From Tuwongella immobilis (GTDB lineage: Bacteria > Planctomycetota > Planctomycetia > Gemmatales > Gemmataceae): a stretch of DNA of 64,000 bases. Positions 8,595-61,897 of the stretch are shown piece after piece (the first letter of the stretch is position 1; each line of letters starts with the position of its first letter). The DNA lies in contig NZ_LR593887.1 of the NCBI RefSeq assembly GCF_901538355.1, positions 5,804,920 to 5,868,919 on the forward strand, written 5' to 3'. Under the pieces are notes generated by a model, which searched no databases, was not told the DNA's origin, and saw only the letters and a list, made by a program, of their open reading frames with translations. Position numbers and translations under genes: made by a program.

Positions 8595-9748
8595 AATGAA
8601 GTTTACCCCGTTCAAACCCCGCTGGATGCGTGACCTCAGTGCCGAGGATCAACGCATTTTCGGGGAGACTCCATCCATCGGGTCACTCGTCGAAATCTCA
8701 CCACGAATCAATGCCCGCCTCCTGCCGTTCGGGGGATCGCACAAACTCTCCGCGAAGACGCTCAGTGACACCCTCGAACACATGCAGCAGGTCGTCCAGT
8801 ACGCCGGATACGACGTGTACCACGGCGTAAACCCTGATTTCGCCGACCTCCGCTCGCTGAGTTCCGAGGTTGTAAACCTCACGAAACTGACGATTGAACC
8901 GTAGTGCCGAGGATCAACGCATTTTCGGGGAGACTCCATCCATCGGGTCACTCGTCGAAATCTCACCACGAATCAATGCCCGCCTCCTGCCGTTCGGGGG
9001 ATCGCACAAACTCTCCGCGAAGACGCTCAGTGACACCCTCGAACGCATGCAGCAGGTCGTCCAGTATGCCGGGTACGATGTCTATCACGGCGTAAACCCT
9101 GATTTCGCCGACCTCCGCTCGCTGAGTTCCGAGGTTGTAAACCTCACGAAACTGACGATTGAACCGTTCGATGAAGGTAGCTTCGTCATTCCAGCCCGTC
9201 TCGAAACGAGGCCGCTCCAGCGAGAGGCCGGAGACGAGCAACCCGCACACGAAGTCGGGGCCGAGGACGTCGTCCGCCGGTTCGATGAAATCTTTGCGTT
9301 GGTTGGTCAACAATCGACCGCCACGCAGGTGTCGATCGGAGCAATCCAGACCGTCGAATCACTTGGCCGGTTGCTGCGCCGCGAGGTCGAGGCAATTGAG
9401 TTCACCACCTTCGATTCGCTCGGCATTCGGCGGAAACCGAATCCGATCCGGATCGACGAGGCGTTCCTCGGGCGTGTGTCCAAGGTCAAGGCGTCTCGCC
9501 AACCGACTCGGGCCAAGTTGGACACGCTCGAAGGGCGAGTCACGGCACTCGATATCAGCGAAGGGAAGCTGCAACTCACAGTCGATGGTCAATCACGGCG
9601 AGTCAAAGGGACATTTGCCATGCTCGTCCTGCAACCATTGCTGGAATCTCTCGGCCGACGAGTCAAACTTGAAGGCCACGTCGAGCGAAGCGGGCGAACG
9701 ATCCAATCGATTCAGATCTTGTCGGCAGAAGTTGTTTCGGAAGATTGA
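8587..9748 (+). pseudogene. Partner gene of the acetyltransferase, broken by a 265-bp tandem duplication
   Basis: The ORF from GTG 8587 (or ATG 8596) begins MKFTPFKPRWMRDLSAEDQR and stops at 8902-8904. The same block of about 88 residues (SAEDQRIFGETPSIG... to KLTIEP) is encoded again from 8906, in a frame shifted by one, and continues in a 280-residue frame to 9748. A single copy would give one continuous protein of about 380 residues. The duplication period (265) is not a multiple of three, so it truncates the first product and leaves the second without a natural start. The intact protein has no domain I recognise. It starts inside the stop region of the GNAT gene, so the pair was probably one operon. 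Confidence 0.75.
8639..9167 (+). repeat. 265-bp tandem duplication
   Basis: Bases 8639-8902 recur at 8904-9167. Most of the unit is identical, but a cluster of synonymous third-position differences occurs around 8780-8830 versus 9045-9095 (for example TACGTGTACCACGG versus TGTCTATCACGG). The clustered silent differences suggest recombination between two diverged alleles rather than a fresh slippage duplication. Confidence 0.9.
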
Positions 9749-10880: not shown

Positions 10881-11015
10881 GCTTTCATTCGACAGAATGG
10901 GAAGAATTTTTAGCAAAGTAGGCCGAATTATTCGCGGATCAGCTGGAATCGCCGTCCGATTAGACGGAATGCAATACCATCGAATCACAAATTCAACGGC
11001 AGGAAGGGGTTGACG

Positions 11016-11687
11016 GTGGATGAGCATGGCTGGCTGACCTCGGACGACCCAGCGGCGATGCTGCGTTCGCTCAACGCTTGGCTGCGGTCCGCCCAGCGGC
11101 GTGGCGAGTCGCCCGACTTGGAATGCCTCCGCCGATTCGCCTGCGCGTGCTGCCGCCGGCTGTGGCCGCTGCTCGACAACGACCACCGCACGGTGTTGCC
11201 CCAATCGTTGGTTCCGGCCCTGCGTTCGCAGCTCGAACGGGTACAAAATCTTCACCGCAGCGACTTGACGGCAGGGCGTGGTGAGGTGATGATGCCGGAG
11301 GCGTTGGGGCGAAAATATCCGCAGGCCAGCAAAGAATGGGGCTTGCAGTGGGTATTCCCATCCGCAAAGTTATCCGCCGATCCGCGTTCGGACCTGGTCT
11401 TGCGTCATCACGTGCACGAAGGAGCGATTTCGCGTTCGATCACCGAAGGTGCAAAGAAAGCAACGATCGTGAAGCAGGCGACAGCCCACACGCTGCGCCA
11501 TTCATTCGCCACGCACCTGTTGGAAGCCGGAACCGATCTGCGAACGATTCAGGAATTACTCGGTCACGAGAGCGTCGAAACTACAATGATCTACACGCAT
11601 GTGCTGAATCGTGGTCGCCTCGGTGTGATCAGCCCCCTCGACACGAACCCGCTTGACCTCGGGGAAACGCTCGGGGCGCAAGAGTGA
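11016..11687 (+). CDS. Chimeric, N-terminally truncated integron integrase (IntI-like tyrosine recombinase)
   Basis: Residues about 57-211 of this 223-aa product align from memory with the C-terminal part of integron integrases. It has the IntI-specific patch [10 protein letters not shown]...[15 protein letters not shown]...RHHVHE (about 94-134), [12 protein letters not shown] (H158, R161), [10 protein letters not shown] (H184) and the nucleophile in MIYTHV (Y193). SPLD follows, as in IntI1. The core-binding domain and the box I arginine are missing. Residues 1-56 ([20 protein letters not shown]...[13 protein letters not shown]) instead resemble the start of a different, common planctomycete hypothetical family. 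The protein is therefore a fusion and very likely inactive alone. GTG 11016 is chosen because AGGAAGGGG lies 6 bp upstream. It is on the same strand as the cassettes, with its 3' end facing them. Confidence 0.88.
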
Positions 11688-19450: not shown

Positions 19451-19576
19451 GGCGGAAGTTCGCTCGCATTTTTGCTTGCACCATTTGACAGACACCCAAC
19501 GGGCGGTTAACCTACGGCGAATCGGCTCATCTCGGGCGAGAGAGATTGCGACACGCAATCGAATCACAAGATCGGC
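19451..19576 (+). repeat. ORF-less promoter cassette, copy B
   Basis: Shortened repeat of 18332-18487. It keeps GGCGGAAGTTCGCTCGCATT, the promoter, GGCTCATCTCGGGCGAGAGA and the terminal hairpin GATTGCG-ACA-CGCAATC. The final core is degenerate (AAGATCGGC instead of AAGTTCGGC). It precedes the DinB gene. Confidence 0.75.
19485..19513 (+). promoter_or_regulatory. Sigma70-like promoter inside the array, copy B
   Basis: TTGACA (19485-19490), 17-bp spacer, TAACCT (19508-19513). It differs from copy A only by one base in the spacer. It points at the DinB-family gene at 19594. Confidence 0.55.
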
Positions 19577-19593
19577 GACGGAGGGTGTCACGG

Positions 19594-20082
19594 ATGGAGC
19601 AACTTGCGGCGGCACTCCGGCAGCGGGTCGCTGCCACCCTACCCCTTCTGCGGGCAATGCCAGAGGCGGAAGTCGCCCACAAGCCGGCCCACGACCGCTG
19701 GTCCAAGAAGGAGATCGTCGGCCATCTGATTGACTCGGCGTGCAACAACCACCAGCGATTCGTTCGGGCGCAACTGGAGGGCGGGCTGACTTTCCCCGGG
19801 TACGAGCAAGAAGGGTGGGCGCGGTGTCAGGGGTACGCAGCCGCTGACTGGGAACTTCTGGTCGAGTTGTGGGCGGCGTACAACCGTCACCTGGCCGAGG
19901 TCATCGGCCGGCTACCGGACTCCGCCCCATCCATCGAATGCCGGATCGGGGAGAGCGGTCCAGTGTCGCTGGCGTGGTTGGCCGAGGACTATGTGCGGCA
20001 TCTGGACCACCACCTGACGCAGCTCGCCCGCTCGGTGCCACAAGACACTGCCCCAGGCGATGCACCTGCCCCGGCCATGTAG
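19594..20082 (+). CDS. DinB-family (DinB_2/YfiT-like) cassette protein
   Basis: ATG 19594 is chosen because GGAGGG lies about 10 bp upstream; an earlier in-frame ATG at 19546 falls within the repeat element. The protein of about 162 residues has the DinB four-helix layout. It has WSKKEIVGHLIDSACNNHQRFVR, with the first metal-ligand His in HL, then GWARCQGYAAADWELLVELW, AAYNRHLAEVIGRLP, and SLAWLAEDYVRHLDHHLTQL with the paired HxxxH. DinB/YfiT proteins are metal-dependent enzymes, including thiol-S-transferases, or of unknown activity. It is one of the few recognisable cassette genes and has its own promoter candidate. Confidence 0.85.
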   Translation: MEQLAAALRQRVAATLPLLRAMPEAEVAHKPAHDRWSKKEIVGHLIDSACNNHQRFVRAQLEGGLTFPGYEQEGWARCQGYAAADWELLVELWAAYNRHLAEVIGRLPDSAPSIECRIGESGPVSLAWLAEDYVRHLDHHLTQLARSVPQDTAPGDAPAPAM

Positions 20083-20392: not shown

Positions 20393-20656
20393 ATGGCGTG
20401 GAGCGGGAACTACGAGGCACTGCGGCAGTATCTCCGCGACTTCACCAACATCGGCGGCGACCCGGCCTATGACACCCACGGCATCCTGATGCTGTTGCTC
20501 GCCCTTGCCGACAACCTGCGTGCGTCGCCTGCGGCGGTTGCCGACCTGCCGGAGCTGGCCGAGACGATCACGCCTGAGCATGCGGCATTCCTGGAGAAGT
20601 TGTCGCGCTGGGCCGCCGAGGCAAGGCACACCGAACCAGGCGATGCAGCAGTCTGA
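20393..20656 (+). CDS. Uncharacterised small cassette protein (87 aa)
   Basis: ATG 20393 follows the leader GGCGGAGGGGGC by about 11 bp. The product reads MAWSGNYEALRQYLRDFTNI, GGDPAYDTHGILMLLLALAD and NLRASPAAVADLPELAETIT, ending in a site-encoded tail HTEPGDAAV. It is an all-helical small soluble protein. No family is recognised. attC site 13 overlaps its last 27 bases. Confidence 0.65.
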   Translation: MAWSGNYEALRQYLRDFTNIGGDPAYDTHGILMLLLALADNLRASPAAVADLPELAETITPEHAAFLEKLSRWAAEARHTEPGDAAV

Positions 20657-20702
20657 CCCATTGCTTCGCGTTCGCCGCCGATGCTGAGATGGGTCGTTCG
20701 GC
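20630..20702 (+). repeat. attC-like site 13 (73 bp)
   Basis: ACCGAAC...GTTCGGC ends pair over six of seven positions. The left box GATGCAGCAG and the right box CTGAGATGG are only partly matched. It is shorter than the other sites because the central loop is reduced. The tRNA-like element begins 21 bp downstream. Confidence 0.75.
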
Positions 20703-20723
20703 GGTGGAGAGGCCCACGGATCG

Positions 20724-20835
20724 GCGGCGGTAGCCTAGCGGAGACGGCACCTGTCCGGCCGCGGCGACGTGGCCGGACGGGGTGGGGTTCACCTCCGGGT
20801 GACGACCCTCGCGGGTTCGACTCCCGCCCGCCGCA
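20724..20835 (+). tRNA. tRNA-like element with no usable anticodon, in an ORF-less cassette
   Basis: Acceptor strands GCGGCGG (20724-20730) and CCGCCGC (20828-20834) pair perfectly. T8 and A9 follow, then a D arm GCC...GGC with loop TAGCGGAGAC containing the G18G19 equivalent. The T arm is canonical: GCGGG-TTCGACT-CCCGC (20811-20827). The anticodon arm is aberrant: an 11-bp stem (CCTGTCCGGCC/GGCCGGACGGG) closes a 10-nt loop without T33. A type II variable arm follows with hairpin TCACC-TCCG-GGTGA. No CCA is encoded. It is not an ordinary decoding tRNA; it could be a tRNA mimic, an inserted or extended tRNA, or a pseudogene. Confidence 0.6.
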
Positions 20836-20867
20836 GTCGGCCGATGGTCGGCCGGGCAGTCGCAGAC

Positions 20868-20957
20868 ACCGCCCCAGGCGCTGCAGCAGATGGCGGGGGC
20901 GTGTCGGATTGCTGGGATTCATCGCTCAGCGTTCGCCGCCGCTGCTGAGCGGCGAAT
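20868..20957 (+). repeat. attC-like site 14 (truncated right end)
   Basis: Left arm ACCGCCCCAGGCGCTGCAGC and right arm GCCGCCGCTGCTGAGC are clear, with the extra-helical G. After CTGAGC the sequence becomes GGCGAATGAG and the GTTCGGC box is missing. This is the last intact-looking site of the array. The following 145 bases (20958-21102) hold no recognisable gene. Confidence 0.75.
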
Positions 20958-21102: not shown

Positions 21103-21840
21103 ATGGAAACAGATATGAACGGTAACTCCTCCAAAAAGCCGATCCTGCGGCTGTGGCGTATCGCTTTCAGCGTGCTGATTGTGGGAGCACTGTGTTCGAT
21201 CGTTGCTTGGGTTGTCACGAACAGGATTCGCAGTAATCAAGCGGCTCATGCGCTCAAGTGTCACGGAAACTTTTGCTGCCTTGAAGTTGCAATGCGGAAT
21301 TACCATCAGCAACACGGACACTTTCCCCCGGCTTATCTGGCTGACAAAGACGGTAAGCCCGCTCACAGTTGGCGGGTGTTGCTTCTGGAAATACTCGAAC
21401 CCCAAGTGTTCGATGCCTACCGCTTTGATGAACCCTGGGATGGCCCGAACAATCGCCTACTCGCTAACCGAATGCCAACATGCTATGCGTGTTCTGAGGA
21501 TGATCGCAAACAGTTCCTCACGAACTACTTTGTGGTCATGGGGCCGGACACGGTCTTTCCGTATGCCAAGACGACCTCGCGTGATGATATCAAGCGACCT
21601 CGTGAGGATACAATTCTGCTGGTCGAGGTGGCAGGGCAAGGCATCCATTGGATGCAGCCAAGCGACCTGGATGTCAACACGATGAGCTTTGAACTCAACG
21701 ATCCGCAACGGCCCCGTATCTCTTCGACGCACGATGCTGGGCCGGGCGTGTATACGGTGGATGGAATGATGCTGCGGCTGACAAACGAAACGCCGGATCA
21801 GCTGCGGGAGATGCTTCGCATCACGCCTGAAGTCAAATAA
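21103..21840 (+). CDS. DUF1559-related membrane-anchored protein
   Basis: This 245-residue protein has one N-terminal transmembrane helix (about residues 17-40, IAFSVLIVGALCSIVAWVV). A pseudopilin-like ectodomain follows with KCHGNFCCLEVAMRNYHQQHGHFPPAYLADKDG, then SWRVLLLEILEPQ and the C-terminal STHDAGPGVYTVDGMMLRL, a relative of the DUF1559 H-X9-DG motif. It lacks the prepilin GFTLIELL cleavage site, so it is a membrane-anchored variant. Start ATG 21103 or 21115. Its final residues (TPEVK) belong to a 176-bp direct repeat that also ends the small membrane protein at 22646. Confidence 0.75.
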   Translation: METDMNGNSSKKPILRLWRIAFSVLIVGALCSIVAWVVTNRIRSNQAAHALKCHGNFCCLEVAMRNYHQQHGHFPPAYLADKDGKPAHSWRVLLLEILEPQVFDAYRFDEPWDGPNNRLLANRMPTCYACSEDDRKQFLTNYFVVMGPDTVFPYAKTTSRDDIKRPREDTILLVEVAGQGIHWMQPSDLDVNTMSFELNDPQRPRISSTHDAGPGVYTVDGMMLRLTNETPDQLREMLRITPEVK

Positions 21841-52861: not shown

Positions 52862-53071
52862 GTTTGCCGATTTTGCGGGCAATTCAATCTCAGAAAAAAA
52901 ATTCATGCCCGACCACTATCCGAATTCGATATATAGATACGGCTTTCCGTCGGTTCGACCGGCATGCGCATCGCCCATCGTGTGCTGATTGTTCCCGTAG
53001 TATCAATTGTTGCGGACGGGTCAGGAAACGGATTCATCCTCACCATGCTGCAATACTTTCGAGGTGCGTCG

Positions 53072-56000
53072 ATGCCCCTTCCGTCATGGCTCCGCCGTCT
53101 TTGGACCCGTTCCGTCAGCGAACCGCAGCAGTCGCCAAGCCCGCTTCGTCCTGGACTGGATGTCCTCGAAGATCGGGTCACCCCCGCCTACAACCTTATC
53201 CTTGGATCCGGCTCCGGCTCCACCAACGTGACAACCACCGTGTCGGCTGGTGTCACCACCTTCGAGGCCACCGGGCCCGGGGCCCAGCTCGGCCTGTTCG
53301 TCGTGTTCAACGCGCTGCAGACTGGGGATGTGATCATTACCACCGGCACCGGCGGCAGCGAGGCTGGCAACATTACCAGCAACATCCTTGGTGCCGAGAT
53401 GAACGCGACGCCCGCGTCCGGAAGCACGATCAGCTTTCGCAGCGGTTCCGGTCCCAACCTGGTCGGCAACATCGAATTGCCGCAGCTCACGTTCAGCGGC
53501 GGCGCGGTCAACCTCGACGTCCAGGCCGCCGGCAACGTGCGGTTCGTCGGCTCGTTCAATAGTTCGACCACTCCGCTGGCCACGGTCACCCTGTCGTCCA
53601 CCAACGGCTCGATCTCAACCGACTCCGGCGCGACCGTGTTCGGTACCCCCCTGGCTGCGACTGCAAAAAGCGGCATCAACATCACCACACAGGTGTCCTC
53701 TCTGGAGGCGAAGTCGGCCACGGGTGGGATCACGATCCAGAATACGGGCAATCTGACGGTGGGCGGTGTTTCGGCATCGCTCTCAGGTGTGGACATCACC
53801 ACTTCGGGCACGGTCGACATTCAGGCAAACGGAACGATCACGGTTTCAACTGCCGGCGAAGATATCACGACCGCCAGCGGCGATATTGTGCTCACAGCCG
53901 ACGATCTAACGATCAACCAAGCGATTAACGCGGGCACTGGCAAGGTCTCGCTTCGGCCATTCTCGGCGGGCCGCCAGATTGACCTGGGCAGCAACGCCGC
54001 TGGAAACCTCGGGATCACTCAAGCGGAACTCACGCTGATCACCGCCGGTGCTGTCGCCATCGGCCGCAACGACATCGCCACCGGGACGGTGGTGGTGAGC
54101 AAGGCATTCGGTGTCACCGGAACGACAAGCCTGAGTGTGACGACGGCCCGGGATATCGACATTATCGGAAGCGGTCCACTCACCAGTGTGGATGGCGATC
54201 TGAGTCTTTCCGCGAATCAGCAAGCGACGCCGACTTCTGGAAACTTCATCGGGATTGATGTGTTTTCCGCTTCTGTGACCGCCACCGGCACCGGGAATGT
54301 GTTGTTGCAAGGCAGAGGCGGGGACACGGACTTCGCCAATTTTGGGGTCCGAATCGTCCGTGATGTTTCCGGTGCCAGCACGACAATCATCGGAACCGGG
54401 GGTAACTCCACCGGAGTTGCCAACTATGGGATCGATCATCAAAACGGTGGAACCATCACCTCGACCGGCGGCGATGTGACGCTGATCGGCACCGGCGGCG
54501 GAACCGGGGCAAGCAGTTCGCAAAACTACGGAATCCGGCTTGGGTTCGGTGCCATCATTACCGCGGGCGGAACCGGCACCGTCAACGCCACGTTCCGGGG
54601 GGGGAATTCGGGCAGCAACGCTAGCCAGAATATCGGTCTGTACATGCTGGATAGTGGCACCGGAGCGCTGATCACCTCTGGCGGTGGCGCAATCAACATC
54701 ACTGCCACCGGTTCCAGCACGAGTTCGGCAATTCAACTGACCAATAACGCCGCCATTCGTTCCGGGAACAATGCCCCAATTACCATCACGGCAGATAGCA
54801 TCTCGTTGAACGATGCTTCCCAGATCGACTCTGGCACCGGTACGACGATCATCCGCCCCAACAGCACCGGCACGCGCATCGACCTCGGGGGTAGCGGCAC
54901 GCTGAACGGCAGTCCGCTCACATTGGGCCTGACCGATGCCGAACTCGACCGCTTCACGGCGGGCACGCTCATCATCGGCCGCAACGACATCGCCACCGGG
55001 GGCATTCAGGTGTCGGCCGCCGTCAGCCCAGCGAACGTCACGACGCTGAGTCTGATTACACCCGCCGAAATTTCGGGGGCCGGCTCGATCGCGGTCAGCA
55101 AATTGGCCATGCGCGCTGTCACCGGCATTGCCCTCACCGGTGCGAATGCGGTAAGCACTCTCGCTCTCCAGAATAAGACATCAGGCACAGTGGCATTCCA
55201 TTCGACAACCAATCTGCTGGTCAGCAGTGTCGATGGACTCACCGGAGCGAACAACAAAGCGGATCTGACAATCAGCACCTCGGCTGGAAGCGATCTCACG
55301 ATCGAGGCTGGGATCAGTGGTGTGGCCTCGTCTCAAGGGAAACTGACTCTCGATGCGGGTCAGGATCTGCTTCTCGGAACAGACTCCAACTTCGGGGACG
55401 TGACCAGCACCGTGCTGACGCTGAAGGCAGGCCGGGATATCGTCGTGTCTAACCAGACCTACGCACAGGGCGGGACCGGCGTGACTGCCACTGCCGGGCG
55501 GAACATCACCATCCAAGGCGACTCGCTGATCAACTCCACCGGCGGAAGCGCTCCGGTGTCGCTCACCACCGGCGCGAGTGGGATCCTGACGCTCAACAAC
55601 TCCATCGCCGACCGTGGGTCGGCGACCAGCGTCGGCGGGCTGCTGACCGTCACCGCTGATGACATCGTGCTGACGGGTGGCGCGCTGAGTTCGTCCGGGA
55701 CGGTGATCATCCGCCCGGTGTCCGCCGGCCGCCAAATCGACCTTGGCACCAACACCACCGGCCAACTTGGCATCACCCAGGCCGAACTGGACCGGATCTC
55801 CGCCAGTTCGATCATCCTCGGCCGCAACGACATTGCGACCGGAGAGGTAATGGTGTCGAAGGTAGTCGGACTGACCGGAACCACGAGTCTGACGGTGATT
55901 ACGGCTCGAAATATCCGGACCAGTAACGCGACTTCGCTCACCACCGTGAATGGCAATCTCAATCTTTCCGCCAACCAGCAAACGACCGCAACCCCGGGTG

Positions 56001-59000
56001 ACTTCACCGGGATTGACGTTTTCAATTCGACAATTGGTGCCACCGGCACCGGACAGGTGACGATTGCCGGGCGAAGTGGCAACGCCTCCACGCTTCAAAT
56101 GGGGATCACCGTTCGCGCCGGCGCAATCATCACTGGCGGCACAACTGGCACCCTCACCGTATCCGGCATCAGCAACGGGTCCAACCTCAATAACTACGGT
56201 CTATTCCTCCTCAATGTCGGCTCATCAATTACCTCAAAGGGCGCATCGGTTTCGGTCACCGGACAAGGCGGATCTGGTAGCGGAGATAACAACTCAGGCA
56301 TCGCCGTCCAAACCGGAGCACAGATTACTGCGGGCGGAATGGGAACGGTATTCGTTCAAGGCACGGGTGGAACGGGTACCAACAGCACCGACGGCATCCT
56401 ATTGCTCGAATCGAATACCAAAATTACTTCCAACGGTGGCAATGTCACCGTCATCGGCATCGGCGGAGGTTCCAGCACTGGAATTGGCAACGTCGGGATT
56501 CGCATCAACCAAGCCCAAATTTCGGCAGGCGGAACTGGTACCCTCACCGTTCAAGGCACCGCGGGCAATTCCACCGGAGAATCTAATTTCGGTATCAATC
56601 TCTTAGGGACTGGGGGGGCGATTTCCTCGGCTGGAACGGTTTCGGTTACCGGAACGGGTCGGAGTCACCCGAGCAGCTTTGGTATTTCGATCCGCAGTAA
56701 TGCAATCATCTCCAGCAGCAGCAACGCGAATTTGTCGATCACCACCGACAGCCTGGGCATCGATGCCACCGGGCAGATCCAAACGGGTACTGGGACATTG
56801 ACCATCCGCCCCCGAACGGCTGGCACCAACATCAACTTGGGTGGGGCCGATGTGCTGTCTGGATCGCCGCTCACGCTTGGATTAACCCTCGCAGAACTTT
56901 CACGAATCACCGCAGCCACGCTCCAAATCGGCGATGCAACCACCGGCAGCATCACCGTCAGCCAAGCGGTTAACCCGGCGAACATCACATCGCAGGTGCG
57001 AGTGGGTGAAGTGGGTGGCGGCAACGTCAACCTGAACGCGAATCTCTCCACCTCGAACAACGCTGCTCTCACCATTGTCCCGAACGTGGTCGTAGGCGGC
57101 ACTCCGACCATCCTTACCGATGCCGGCGCAATCACTTTCAGCGGCACCGTCAACGGTGATGGCTCGGCGGGCCGGTCGCTCACCACCACCACGACTGGCG
57201 CCACGACGTTCACGGGAGCCGTTGGTGCAACCAATCCGCTGGCGGCATTAACCATCACCACCAACACCCTGACCACCTCGGCAATTGCTACCACGACCGG
57301 ACTGACCGTCACCCAAAGCGGGGCGGGAACCATCGGCGGCGCGATTACCAATACGGGCGGATTGGTCAAAGGCGGCACAGGTACACTCACCCTCGCGGCG
57401 GCCAATTCGTATTCCGGGAACACCCAGATCAACGCCGGTACGCTTCGCGCTGGGGCGGCAAATGTCTTCTCGGCGAACTCGGCAGTCAGTCTGGCAGATG
57501 CAGCCGGGGCCACACTCGACCTCAACGGCCTCAATCAATCGATTGGCTCGCTCGCCGGTGGTGGAATCACGGGCGGCAATGTTACGCTGGGTGCAGCGAC
57601 GCTCACGGTTGGTGGAAATTCCGCCTCCACCAGCTATGCTGGCATCATTTCCGGTAGCGGCTCGCTGGTCAAACAAGGCACTGGAACGCTCACCCTCACC
57701 GGAACCAACACCTTCACCGGAACCACAACGATCGATGCCGGACGATTGAATGTGGACGGTTCCATCGCAGGGAATCTGTCCGTCGGCGGCTCCGGCACAC
57801 TCGGCGGAAACGGCACCATCGGCGGAAATGTCTCCGGCTCCGGTACCGTCGCACCCGGCGCAAGTCCCGGTAAACTGACCATTAACGGCGATTTCACCCC
57901 TTCCGGAATCGTCGAATTTGAAGTCAATCCACCCGCCGCCACCGCCGGCACCGACTACGACCAAATCGAAGTGGAAGGCGCCGTCGATCTCAGCGCTGCC
58001 ACCTTCTCATTCGTCGGAACGGCCCAGCCGCCTACGGTCGCTGCCAATCAGGTCGTCACCCTCATTCGCAATCTCGGCGGCGAGCCTATCACCGAAAGTC
58101 CCGCTTTCGCGCAAGGCTCAATCGTCACCATCAACGGAACAACCTACCGATTGTTCTACCAATTTGATGGCAACGACGATCTCATCCTTCGTCAAGATAC
58201 CGCACCAACCACGGTCTATGTCTCCGCGACATTCACCCAAGCCGTTGGCAGCGCGATCACCGATGCCGACTTTGGCACCGCTCGCGATCAAGCCGCCGTT
58301 GCGGGGGTTACCGCATTCACCACCATCGCCGCCGCTCTCGCTGCGATTGCCGATGGCGGGACCATCATCGTCAACGAGGGAAACTACAGCGAAGCCGTCA
58401 ATCTGACCGCGACTCGCGTTCCGCTATTCCGAATCACCGGCGCAGATGCCGCTCAATCTGTCACCCTGGGCAGCCTCGCCACCGCAACCGGAGTCACCGT
58501 CCAAATCGACGGTACTTCCGTCCTCTCGATCAACGGCGACAACTCCAGCACACTGATTGCCGGCGTCATTTCCGGTAGCGGCTCGCTGGTCAAGCAAGGC
58601 ACCGGAACGCTCACCCTCACCGGAACCAACACGTTCACCGGCACCACAACGATCGACGCGGGACGATTGAATGTGGACGGTTCCATCGCGGGGAATCTGT
58701 CCGTCGGCGGCTCCGGCACACTCGGCGGCAACGGCACCATCGGCGGAAATGTCTCTGGCTCCGGTACCGTCGCGCCCGGCGCAAGTCCCGGTAAATTGAC
58801 CATTAACGGCGATTTCACCCCTTCCGGAATCGTCGAATTTGAAGTCAATCCACCCGCCACAACCGCCGGCACCGACTACGACCAAATCGAAGTGGAAGGC
58901 GCCGTCGATCTCAGCGCTGCCACCTTCTCATTCGTCGGAACGGCCCAGCCGCCTACGGTCGCTGCCAATCAGGTCGTCACCCTCATTCGCAATCTCGGCG

Positions 59001-61897
59001 GCGAGCCTATCACCGAAAGTCCCGCTTTCGCGCAAGGCTCAATCGTCACCATCAACGGAACAACCTACCGATTGTTCTACCAATTTGATGGCAACGACGA
59101 TCTCATCCTTCGTCAAGATACCGCACCAACCACGGTCTATGTCTCCGCGACATTCACCCAAGCCGTTGGCAGCGCGATCACCGATGCCGACTTTGGCACC
59201 GCTCGCGATCAAGCCGCCGTTGCGGGGGTTACCGCATTCACCACCATCGCCGCCGCTCTCGCTGCGATTGCCGATGGCGGGACCATCATCGTCAACGAGG
59301 GAAACTACAGCGAAGCCGTCAATCTGACCGCGACTCGCGTTCCGCTATTCCGAATCACCGGCGCAGATGCCGCTCAATCTGTCACCCTGGGCAGCCTCGC
59401 CACCGCAACCGGAGTCACCGTCCAAATCGACGGTACTTCCGTCCTCTCGATCAACGGCGACAACTCCAGCACGCAGATTGCCGGCGTCATTTCCGGCAGC
59501 GGCTCGCTGGTCAAGCAAGGTACTGGAACGCTCACCCTCACCGGAACCAACACCTTCACCGGCACCACCACGATCAACGCGGGAACGCTGCTGGTGAATG
59601 GCGTTCATTCGGGGACTGGCGCGGTGACGGTGAACGCGACGGGCACGCTGGGCGGCACCGGCAGCATCGCTGGTGAGGTGACGGTGAACAGCGGCGGGCA
59701 GATCACCGGGGGCATGCTTGGCGAAGTCGGCACCCTCACTGTCGGCGGGCTGCTGTTCAATGGTGGCACCTTCGCTGCCGATTTCGGGATGGATTCCTCG
59801 GACACAATCGCCACGGCGGGGACGGTGAATCTGGCCTCGCCGGGACAAGCGGTGTTCGTGAAGAATTCGCAGAAAGGAACGGCCACTCCCGGCATTGTGT
59901 TTACGCTGATTGATTTGACCGGCAGCGGAACCATCAGCAATCCGCCGCTCGCAAATGCGATTGCGGGCAGCTCCGACACCATCAACGGCCAATCCGGTGT
60001 CTTCGGCTACAACGGCGGCGCGGGCGAGAATGACTTCGTCTTCGCCACCAGCGGCACGCAAGGCGTGGTCATCACTCCCACCGGGGGAGATACCGTCGTC
60101 ATCGAAAACGGCGCCACAGACACCGTCCAGGTGCGTTTGACTTCGCGCCCCGTGACCGATGTGACCATCACCTTGACGCCGACGAGCGTGAACGCCGATC
60201 CGGTGGTGCTGGTGTTCACTTCCGCGAATTGGAATGTGCCGCAGACCGTGACGATCTCGGTGCCAGACAACACCATCGTCGATGGCACCCGACAGGGCAG
60301 CGTGTCGTTTGCAGTCACCAGTTCTGATGCCAACTATAACGGCCTGACCATCTCGCCATTGGCAGTCACGATCCTGGATAACGATGCCGCCGCATCAGTC
60401 GAGGTGGTCGGCGGCAGTGGACAATCGGCGATGTTGGGCAGCGGATTCGCTTCGCCCTTGAGCGTGGTGGTCCGCAACGCCGATGGACAGGCCGTTTCGG
60501 GTGCGACGGTCACGTTCGTGGTGCCAACCTCGGGTGCGACGGCGGTTCTCTCGACGATGTCGGTCATCACTGGGCGAGACGGGATTGCCACGGTGACGGC
60601 GACGGCGGGCCTGGTGGCCGGCACGTACCTCGTGACCGCCTCATCGGGCGAGGCCACGCCTGCGGAATTGTCGCTGACCAATGCGGTGCTGTCGCAGTCG
60701 ATCGACTTCCCGGTGCCGGCTCCGGTGCCGTTCGCGGCGGGTCGCACGGTGGCGCTGACCGCGACGGCGTCGAGCGGTCTGCCGGTGGTGTACACGGTGG
60801 TATCGGGTCCAGGCGTCCTGAATGGCTCCACCCTCACCGCGACCCGCCCGGGGACGGTGATTGTCCAAGCCTCGCAGCCAGGCAATGCAGAATTTGGTGC
60901 CGCCGAGTCGATCACCATCGAGGTGGTGTTCCGTCCGGTGGGACAAGATCAATTCACGGAATTCTTGGTGAGTACCGCAACTGGCGTCAGCACAGTCGCC
61001 GAGCCGGGGCAAACGCCGGTGCCCGTGGCGGGACCGGGACCGGGCTCCCGTGGCGTCGTCGCGGATATGACCGGCGACGGAATCGCGGATTCGATCATCG
61101 CATCGGGGCCTGGGGCACGTGTCACGATCACCGTCTACGATGGTGCAACGGGGCAAGTGGTCCGCACCCTGTCGGCATTCGAGGATTCGTTCTTCGATAG
61201 TGCCACGCTCGCAGCAGCGGATGTCAACGGCGACGGGATCGCGGATTTGGCCGTTGGCGCGGATGCGTTCGGCGGGCCTCGCGTGACCATCTTCGATGGC
61301 GCGACCGGGACCGTTTTGGCCGACTTCTTCGCCATTGATGATGTCAATTTCCGAGGCGGTGTCCGCGTTGCATTGGGCGATGTGGACGGCGACGGCTTCG
61401 CCGATCTGATGGTGGCTGCTGGCGTGGGGGGTGGTCCACGCGTCGCTCTGTGGGACGGCGCCAGCCTGCGACCGGGCGAATCGCCGCGTCGCCTGGTGAG
61501 CGATTTCTTCGCCTTCGAGCCGACGTTGCGAGATGGGGCCAATGTCTCCTTGGGCGATCTGAACGGCGACGGCCAATTGGATCTGATTCTGTCCGGTGGC
61601 CCCGGCGGTGGTCCGCGGGTGTTGGTGCTGGATGCCGCCGAATTCCTCGCCTCGGGTGGGGAATCGCGGGTTGTGCTGGCCAACTTCTTCGCGGCGGAAC
61701 CAACCCTCACCGGCGGAGCGGTGGTCACCGCCAAAGATTTGGACGGCGACGAATTCGCCGACCTGGTCGTTGGCATCCCCACCGGCCCGTCCACCGCGCT
61801 GGTGCGGATGTTCCTGGGTAACACGATCACATCGTCGGATACCCCGCCGGTGTTTGAGGAACTCACCCTGGATGTGAGTGCCATTTACGTCGGCTAA
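53072..61897 (+). CDS. Giant secreted beta-strand/FG-GAP surface protein (about 2,940 aa)
   Basis: It starts MPLPSWLRRLWTRSVSEPQQ (ATG 53072, GAGGTG upstream) and carries LEDRVTPA at residues 32-39, a motif recurring at the start of giant planctomycete surface proteins. A filamentous beta-helix of hundreds of G/T/S-rich strands follows. It includes autotransporter-associated repeats (SGSGSLVKQGTGTLTLTGTN, VNGDGSAGRSLTTTTTGATT) and a tandem 307-residue duplication. A Calx-beta-like domain comes next (VIENGATDTVQVRLTSRPVT), then a bacterial Ig-like region. Five C-terminal FG-GAP/EF-like motifs follow (DMTGDGIAD, DVNGDGIAD, DVDGDGFAD, DLNGDGQLD, DLDGDEFAD). Probably an adhesin or structural surface protein. 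In-frame ATGs at 52964 and 53045 are alternatives. Confidence 0.9.
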   Translation: MPLPSWLRRLWTRSVSEPQQSPSPLRPGLDVLEDRVTPAYNLILGSGSGSTNVTTTVSAGVTTFEATGPGAQLGLFVVFNALQTGDVIITTGTGGSEAGNITSNILGAEMNATPASGSTISFRSGSGPNLVGNIELPQLTFSGGAVNLDVQAAGNVRFVGSFNSSTTPLATVTLSSTNGSISTDSGATVFGTPLAATAKSGINITTQVSSLEAKSATGGITIQNTGNLTVGGVSASLSGVDITTSGTVDIQANGTITVSTAGEDITTASGDIVLTADDLTINQAINAGTGKVSLRPFSAGRQIDLGSNAAGNLGITQAELTLITAGAVAIGRNDIATGTVVVSKAFGVTGTTSLSVTTARDIDIIGSGPLTSVDGDLSLSANQQATPTSGNFIGIDVFSASVTATGTGNVLLQGRGGDTDFANFGVRIVRDVSGASTTIIGTGGNSTGVANYGIDHQNGGTITSTGGDVTLIGTGGGTGASSSQNYGIRLGFGAIITAGGTGTVNATFRGGNSGSNASQNIGLYMLDSGTGALITSGGGAINITATGSSTSSAIQLTNNAAIRSGNNAPITITADSISLNDASQIDSGTGTTIIRPNSTGTRIDLGGSGTLNGSPLTLGLTDAELDRFTAGTLIIGRNDIATGGIQVSAAVSPANVTTLSLITPAEISGAGSIAVSKLAMRAVTGIALTGANAVSTLALQNKTSGTVAFHSTTNLLVSSVDGLTGANNKADLTISTSAGSDLTIEAGISGVASSQGKLTLDAGQDLLLGTDSNFGDVTSTVLTLKAGRDIVVSNQTYAQGGTGVTATAGRNITIQGDSLINSTGGSAPVSLTTGASGILTLNNSIADRGSATSVGGLLTVTADDIVLTGGALSSSGTVIIRPVSAGRQIDLGTNTTGQLGITQAELDRISASSIILGRNDIATGEVMVSKVVGLTGTTSLTVITARNIRTSNATSLTTVNGNLNLSANQQTTATPGDFTGIDVFNSTIGATGTGQVTIAGRSGNASTLQMGITVRAGAIITGGTTGTLTVSGISNGSNLNNYGLFLLNVGSSITSKGASVSVTGQGGSGSGDNNSGIAVQTGAQITAGGMGTVFVQGTGGTGTNSTDGILLLESNTKITSNGGNVTVIGIGGGSSTGIGNVGIRINQAQISAGGTGTLTVQGTAGNSTGESNFGINLLGTGGAISSAGTVSVTGTGRSHPSSFGISIRSNAIISSSSNANLSITTDSLGIDATGQIQTGTGTLTIRPRTAGTNINLGGADVLSGSPLTLGLTLAELSRITAATLQIGDATTGSITVSQAVNPANITSQVRVGEVGGGNVNLNANLSTSNNAALTIVPNVVVGGTPTILTDAGAITFSGTVNGDGSAGRSLTTTTTGATTFTGAVGATNPLAALTITTNTLTTSAIATTTGLTVTQSGAGTIGGAITNTGGLVKGGTGTLTLAAANSYSGNTQINAGTLRAGAANVFSANSAVSLADAAGATLDLNGLNQSIGSLAGGGITGGNVTLGAATLTVGGNSASTSYAGIISGSGSLVKQGTGTLTLTGTNTFTGTTTIDAGRLNVDGSIAGNLSVGGSGTLGGNGTIGGNVSGSGTVAPGASPGKLTINGDFTPSGIVEFEVNPPAATAGTDYDQIEVEGAVDLSAATFSFVGTAQPPTVAANQVVTLIRNLGGEPITESPAFAQGSIVTINGTTYRLFYQFDGNDDLILRQDTAPTTVYVSATFTQAVGSAITDADFGTARDQAAVAGVTAFTTIAAALAAIADGGTIIVNEGNYSEAVNLTATRVPLFRITGADAAQSVTLGSLATATGVTVQIDGTSVLSINGDNSSTLIAGVISGSGSLVKQGTGTLTLTGTNTFTGTTTIDAGRLNVDGSIAGNLSVGGSGTLGGNGTIGGNVSGSGTVAPGASPGKLTINGDFTPSGIVEFEVNPPATTAGTDYDQIEVEGAVDLSAATFSFVGTAQPPTVAANQVVTLIRNLGGEPITESPAFAQGSIVTINGTTYRLFYQFDGNDDLILRQDTAPTTVYVSATFTQAVGSAITDADFGTARDQAAVAGVTAFTTIAAALAAIADGGTIIVNEGNYSEAVNLTATRVPLFRITGADAAQSVTLGSLATATGVTVQIDGTSVLSINGDNSSTQIAGVISGSGSLVKQGTGTLTLTGTNTFTGTTTINAGTLLVNGVHSGTGAVTVNATGTLGGTGSIAGEVTVNSGGQITGGMLGEVGTLTVGGLLFNGGTFAADFGMDSSDTIATAGTVNLASPGQAVFVKNSQKGTATPGIVFTLIDLTGSGTISNPPLANAIAGSSDTINGQSGVFGYNGGAGENDFVFATSGTQGVVITPTGGDTVVIENGATDTVQVRLTSRPVTDVTITLTPTSVNADPVVLVFTSANWNVPQTVTISVPDNTIVDGTRQGSVSFAVTSSDANYNGLTISPLAVTILDNDAAASVEVVGGSGQSAMLGSGFASPLSVVVRNADGQAVSGATVTFVVPTSGATAVLSTMSVITGRDGIATVTATAGLVAGTYLVTASSGEATPAELSLTNAVLSQSIDFPVPAPVPFAAGRTVALTATASSGLPVVYTVVSGPGVLNGSTLTATRPGTVIVQASQPGNAEFGAAESITIEVVFRPVGQDQFTEFLVSTATGVSTVAEPGQTPVPVAGPGPGSRGVVADMTGDGIADSIIASGPGARVTITVYDGATGQVVRTLSAFEDSFFDSATLAAADVNGDGIADLAVGADAFGGPRVTIFDGATGTVLADFFAIDDVNFRGGVRVALGDVDGDGFADLMVAAGVGGGPRVALWDGASLRPGESPRRLVSDFFAFEPTLRDGANVSLGDLNGDGQLDLILSGGPGGGPRVLVLDAAEFLASGGESRVVLANFFAAEPTLTGGAVVTAKDLDGDEFADLVVGIPTGPSTALVRMFLGNTITSSDTPPVFEELTLDVSAIYVG
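57641..59575 (+). repeat. 921-bp tandem repeat within the giant surface-protein gene
   Basis: Unit 1 (57641-58561) and unit 2 (58562-59482) are almost identical at the nucleotide level; a third, partial unit runs to about 59575. The period is exactly 307 codons. Each unit encodes SGSGSLVKQGTGTLTLTGTN, a linker (GNLSVGGSGTLGGNGTIGGN), a strand-rich block and FTTIAAALAAIADGGTIIVN. Confidence 0.95.

Follow-up and report, generated by a model that had tools for sequence, protein, structure and literature searches.

A predicted tRNA mimic without an anticodon loop in an integron gene cassette of Tuwongella immobilis

Integron cassettes are usually viewed as carriers of single protein genes, and the locus described here raises the question of what a cassette carries when no protein gene is recognised in it. 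A sequence-only reading of the window (the whole stretch of 64,000 nucleotides that was analysed) had pointed to an ORF-less cassette between two attC sites with a tRNA-like gene as its cargo, possibly a tRNA mimic, a decoy, a primer or a decayed suppressor tRNA.

The cassette and its RNA

The start of the array region is marked by an integron integrase ORF, and repeat families and a consensus scan give about 13-14 attC repeats downstream of it (R'' GCCGAAC, R' GTTCGGC). Between two of these sites, in the sense direction of the array, sits the tRNA-like RNA. The features are:

11010..11687, plus strand: ORF of the integron integrase, matching the C-terminal half of IntI (TIGR02249, 218 bits, positions 160-314; PF00589, Phage_integrase, 75 bits)
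20627..20704, plus strand: attC upstream of the cassette, clear (R'' ACCGAAC at about 20627, R' GTTCGGC at about 20693)
20724..20835, plus strand: tRNA-like RNA of 112 nt, inside the interval 20703-20867 noted before (Rfam tRNA, MFE z, two homologues)
20724..20730, plus strand: 5' strand of the acceptor stem, GCGGCGG (from sequence; invariant across the three homologues)
20733..20748, plus strand: D arm, GCC-TAGCGGAGAC-GGC, carrying A14, G15, G18 and G19
20750..20781, plus strand: predicted 14-bp hairpin that replaces the anticodon arm, with its GCGA tetraloop at 20764-20767 (MFE, three compensatory pairs)
20784..20809, plus strand: predicted variable arm, with a proximal GGG/CCC stem and a UCCG-capped distal stem (MFE, homologues)
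20811..20827, plus strand: T arm, GCGGG-TTCGACT-CCCGC (sequence and Rfam alignment)
20828..20835, plus strand: 3' strand of the acceptor stem, CCGCCGC, and discriminator A; CCA not encoded
20836..20857, plus strand: strong GC hairpin directly 3' of the RNA, -13.2 kcal/mol, T tract absent
20865..20945, plus strand: attC of the tRNA-like cassette; R''/L'' and L' can be recognised, R' is degenerate

The overlapping ORFs match no Pfam family and the homologues described below vary in length by 7 nt, so the conserved unit is non-coding and an artefact of coding sequence could be rejected. The observation of a tRNA-like gene as cassette cargo was borne out: with attC sites on either side and an integron integrase in the array, its position is that of a gene cassette, the R' half of the downstream site being degenerate. 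Nor is the RNA an attC site mistaken for a tRNA, as the attC sites are distinct repeats that flank it on either side. The TIGR02249 match comprises the C-terminal half only, in an ORF of 225 aa, and IntI may be truncated or frameshifted. Directly after the cassette lies a DUF1559 (PF07596) protein (21103-21840), and two ORFs ahead of it a DinB_2 protein (19546-20082). Elsewhere in the window there are a 265-nt tandem duplication with 97% identity (8633-9162) and a 2977-aa ORF, a length that is extreme among bacteria (52964-61897).

Positions 20724-20835 read, on the plus strand, GCGGCGG TA GCC-TAGCGGAGAC-GGC A [CCTGTCCGGCCGCG GCGA CGTGGCCGGACGGG] GT [GGGGTTCACCTCCGGGTGACGACCC] TC GCGGG-TTCGACT-CCCGC CCGCCGC A. 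The core contacts T8, A9, G15-C48 and discriminator A73 are present, the D arm has a 3-bp stem and an AGCGG loop, and the 7-bp acceptor and 5-bp T stem give a 7/5 composition. Sequence, Rfam alignment and fold agree with the earlier description of the acceptor GCGGCGG/CCGCCGC, T8/A9, the D arm, the TTCGACT T arm and the long variable arm. The anticodon arm had been drawn as an 11-bp stem with a 10-nt loop, and here the description held in that there is no normal anticodon, but not in its geometry: in the MFE fold three further pairs (C-G, G-U, G-C) make a 14-bp stem. This is closed by the GCGA tetraloop, so the element has no anticodon loop at all. A decoding tRNA would have a 5-bp stem and a 7-nt loop with T33 here; both are absent, and the element belongs with tRNA folds that are unable to decode, a loose class of pseudo-tRNAs.

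ARAGORN and Infernal with tRNA models had been named beforehand as checks. ARAGORN calls no tRNA anywhere in the window. Rfam tRNA (RF00005) aligns with the element end to end (1-71 of 71) at 27.7 bits (E 6e-4 in 301 bases), which falls just short of the curated cut-off of 29 bits, and at the gathering threshold there is no match; genome-wide the element is the top match below the cut-off (E 0.003). The element folds with a minimum free energy of -74.6 kcal/mol, whereas shuffles give -57.6 +/- 3.5 (z -4.85); together with the homologues this rules out a chance fold. For tmRNA neither ARAGORN nor Rfam at the gathering threshold gave a match to the element, and the tRNA-like module of YrlA / Y-RNA (RF02553) and mascRNA (RF01684) were sub-threshold at 15.6 and 13.6 bits.

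As to origin, the element has T8 A9 as class I tRNAs do, whereas the host's own class II tRNAs read T8 G9. Among the host tRNAs the core comes closest to a CAT tRNA and a Lys tRNA, a weak resemblance that suggests a class I tRNA which gained two arms. Ordinary genes for Ser, Leu, Tyr and Sec tRNAs are present in the host, along with many other isoacceptors, so there is no obvious need for the element in decoding. CCA is encoded in none of the host tRNA genes read with flanks, and its absence here is therefore no objection. Two further tRNA loci were noticed: a CAT-anticodon gene with an insertion of about 66 nt in the variable region, scored by Rfam at 46.9 bits and missed by ARAGORN (G000:C1:4333939-4334077, L092), and a compact cluster of eight ARAGORN tRNA genes, several of them Rfam-low, which resembles phage- or plasmid-type arrays (G000:C1:6682899-6683765, L094).

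Homologues and distribution

A DNA search over the window's own genome and 197 related ones, 198 in all, gave two full-length matches besides the window, in G042 (86% identity) and G073 (80%), which are other genomes of the host's family, Gemmataceae. Both alignments begin exactly at G1. The homologues score 37.9 and 38.9 bits with Rfam tRNA, over the 29-bit cut-off, and ARAGORN misses them too. T8, A14, G15, G18, G19, C48, T54, T55, C56, A58 and A73 are invariant in all three copies. Both homologues keep the acceptor, D and T arms, the opposite of the loss of arms that the sequence-only reading had named as evidence against itself, and they also retain the two tetraloop-capped arms, with a long hairpin of 13-14 bp across the copies.

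The tetraloops of the long arm are GCGA, UAAC and GUGA, that is two GNRA loops and one UMAC, a loop that folds like GNRA; those of the variable arm are UCCG, UUCG and UUCG, every one of them UNCG. Three pairs of the long arm are altered on both strands, against none in every slid control. Of 500 shuffles, 31 reach the observed count of changed pairs and 22 that of paired cells, and there are three copies only, so that the covariation is suggestive but thin. There are mismatches in the long arms of G042 and G073, and pair 31-39 is mismatched in two of the three copies. When folded without constraint, the G042 copy is partly rearranged, with the full cloverleaf about 2 kcal/mol above the minimum, and the G073 copy keeps the acceptor and T arm while its D and variable arms are rearranged.

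Beyond the ends of the mature RNA the three copies cease to resemble each other, their upstream and downstream flanks aligning no better than shuffled sequence, from which it follows that the conserved unit is the mature RNA itself. Each copy is then followed by a strong hairpin, at the same place but a different one per copy, and no consensus promoter or terminator was found at the window or G073 copy. The copy in G042 likewise lies between attC sites, far from the integrase of that genome, and we infer from it that the element may be mobile as a cassette. The G073 copy is free-standing, without an attC match in its 3-kb locus, between two reading frames that by eye are ABC-transporter-like and phosphoglycerate-dehydrogenase-like. 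When 11 kb of the window array were compared with G042 and G073, attC-type matches of about 110 nt and the tRNA-like RNA were all that appeared, and no other common cargo was recognised at the sensitivity of that comparison.

A covariance model built from the three copies (R1) scores them at 127, 125 and 100 bits, and the next matches in 95 family genomes reach at most 48 bits; those of them that were checked are ordinary Ser and Leu tRNAs. The element is thus found in three of the 95. In 397 genomes of the class and 392 of the phylum, sets that overlap each other and the family set, R1 added no copy: the extra matches, one of them in G703 at 51 bits, lie at 47-51 bits, in the range of ordinary tRNAs, and those typed among the others are Ser, Cys and Arg tRNAs. 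No further copy turned up in plasmid or phage collections at the sensitivities used. Three patterns run on viral contigs gave a sole match, which failed the model, and among species-representative contigs that of G073 was the only real match. About 244 kb around the G042 and G073 cassette arrays held no other tRNA or tRNA-like RNA (Rfam over 138 kb thereof).

What the RNA may do

We put the probability that the element, with its predicted fold, is a non-decoding tRNA mimic carried as cassette cargo and acting outside translation at roughly 0.6. Of the roles considered from the sequence alone, that of a mimic stood, as the core is kept in two homologues, one of them in a cassette, while the decayed suppressor is disfavoured. 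The RNA would be transcribed within the array transcript or from a promoter of its own, trimmed by RNase P and 3' processing, provided with CCA by the CCA-adding enzyme like the host tRNAs, and folded into an L shape. Its partner would probably be a protein reading the elbow and the acceptor end of tRNAs. Most likely this would be a synthetase indifferent to the anticodon, so that the RNA would serve as an aminoacyl donor or titrate synthetase or EF-Tu, and the rigid arm would keep the mimic off the ribosome. Among charging identities, the 3:70 pair is G:C and the main alanine determinant is thus absent; A73 stands against G73 in the host serine tRNAs, and G15-C48 against A15-U48 in the host leucine tRNAs. 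A bolder hypothesis, which we offer tentatively and at well below even odds, is that mobile tRNA mimics without an anticodon make up a new family: they would be charged by a synthetase independent of the anticodon, dedicated as non-ribosomal amino-acid donors or regulators and spread as integron cassettes.

The rival that survives best, although we consider it rather unlikely, is a decaying or pseudogenised tRNA, an ex-suppressor or an ordinary one whose anticodon and variable regions took up insertions, which hitch-hikes in the cassette without function. Decay would fit the rarity of the element (3/95 family genomes), the score of the window copy under the Rfam cut-off, the long-arm mismatches in G042 and G073 and the degenerate R' half in the window. 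It does not fit core tertiary nucleotides that are invariant although the flanks are unrelated, nor copies in two cassettes and at one free-standing locus, and both expanded arms are conserved and capped by stable tetraloops, with compensatory changes, which speaks against the decayed suppressor in particular.

Another rival, and an unlikely one, is that the tRNA fold is a processing or regulatory device, an RNase P signal that cuts array transcripts and leaves the RNA as a by-product (compare mascRNA and MALAT1). RNase P could plausibly act on an acceptor with a T arm, the orientation in the array is sense, and a strong hairpin follows each copy. The G073 copy is however free-standing, outside any array, and a cleavage signal needs no conserved long arms on the anticodon side and in the variable region. 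We rate this explanation below decay.

Less probable again is a defence cassette whose RNA would draw off tRNA-directed toxins or tRNA-cleaving enzymes as a decoy or sink. Defence and toxin-antitoxin genes are frequent among integron cassettes, and enzymes that bind tRNAs can be competed for by a tRNA mimic. The decoy for anticodon nucleases that had been suggested earlier lacks the very loop to be cut and so would be no substrate, and an unsystematic look noticed no toxin beside the window copy.

Very improbable is a tRNA gene with an intron or editing, which would decode once the long arm had been partly removed. The four to five proximal pairs of that arm (CCTG/CGGG) might represent an ordinary anticodon stem that received an insertion of about 15 nt, but the insertion is itself paired and tetraloop-capped, with compensatory changes, pair 31-39 is mismatched in two of the three copies, no Rfam intron family is matched, and no tRNA splicing endonuclease is known from bacteria. 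A primer role has no supporting evidence, and no reverse transcriptase was noticed beside any copy in an unsystematic look.

If the non-decoding mimic is what the cassette carries, as sole cargo in two arrays and once more as a gene standing alone, an anticodon-less structured RNA can be cassette cargo. Should it also be charged, this would be a naturally occurring tRNA reserved for a task away from the ribosome and made unable to decode.

Comparison with known systems

In Bacillus cereus the pseudo-tRNA tRNA-Other is a small tRNA-like RNA outside translation, present in some strains only, tied to mobile DNA and poorly charged (PMC3399842). The link of a tRNA-like RNA to mobile DNA is common to both, the role outside translation being predicted for our element, but tRNA-Other has a Trp anticodon (PMC3399842), whereas the element has no anticodon loop, two tetraloop-capped arms and an integron cassette. 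The tRNA-like domain of tmRNA (ssrA) is an acceptor/T half without anticodon; RNase P processes it, and its charging involves no reading of an anticodon (PMC3985003). The element shares such a half and the lack of an anticodon, its own processing and charging being only predicted, but it is without the alanine G3:U70 and retains a standard D arm in about 112 nt; no tag reading frame was noticed in passing.

Allo-tRNAs and selC-type tRNA-Cys have a long variable arm and a lengthened anticodon stem as well, but they keep the anticodon and have a longer acceptor, 8/4 or 9/3 (PMC7609411), and with its 7/5 composition and no anticodon the element falls outside the allo-tRNA and tRNA-Sec-like group. 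The YrlA / Y-RNA module and mascRNA are likewise tRNA mimicry in non-coding RNA, and the element differs from them by its full cloverleaf core. In the literature searched we found no tRNA-like integron cassette. The sRNA-Xcc1 of Xanthomonas is a non-coding RNA carried as cassette cargo and spread between arrays, but it is not described as tRNA-like and its cassette also contains symE (PMC12444791). A tRNA core, the lack of an anticodon and carriage by an integron are thus brought together in the element, and in none of tRNA-Other, the allo-tRNAs and sRNA-Xcc1.
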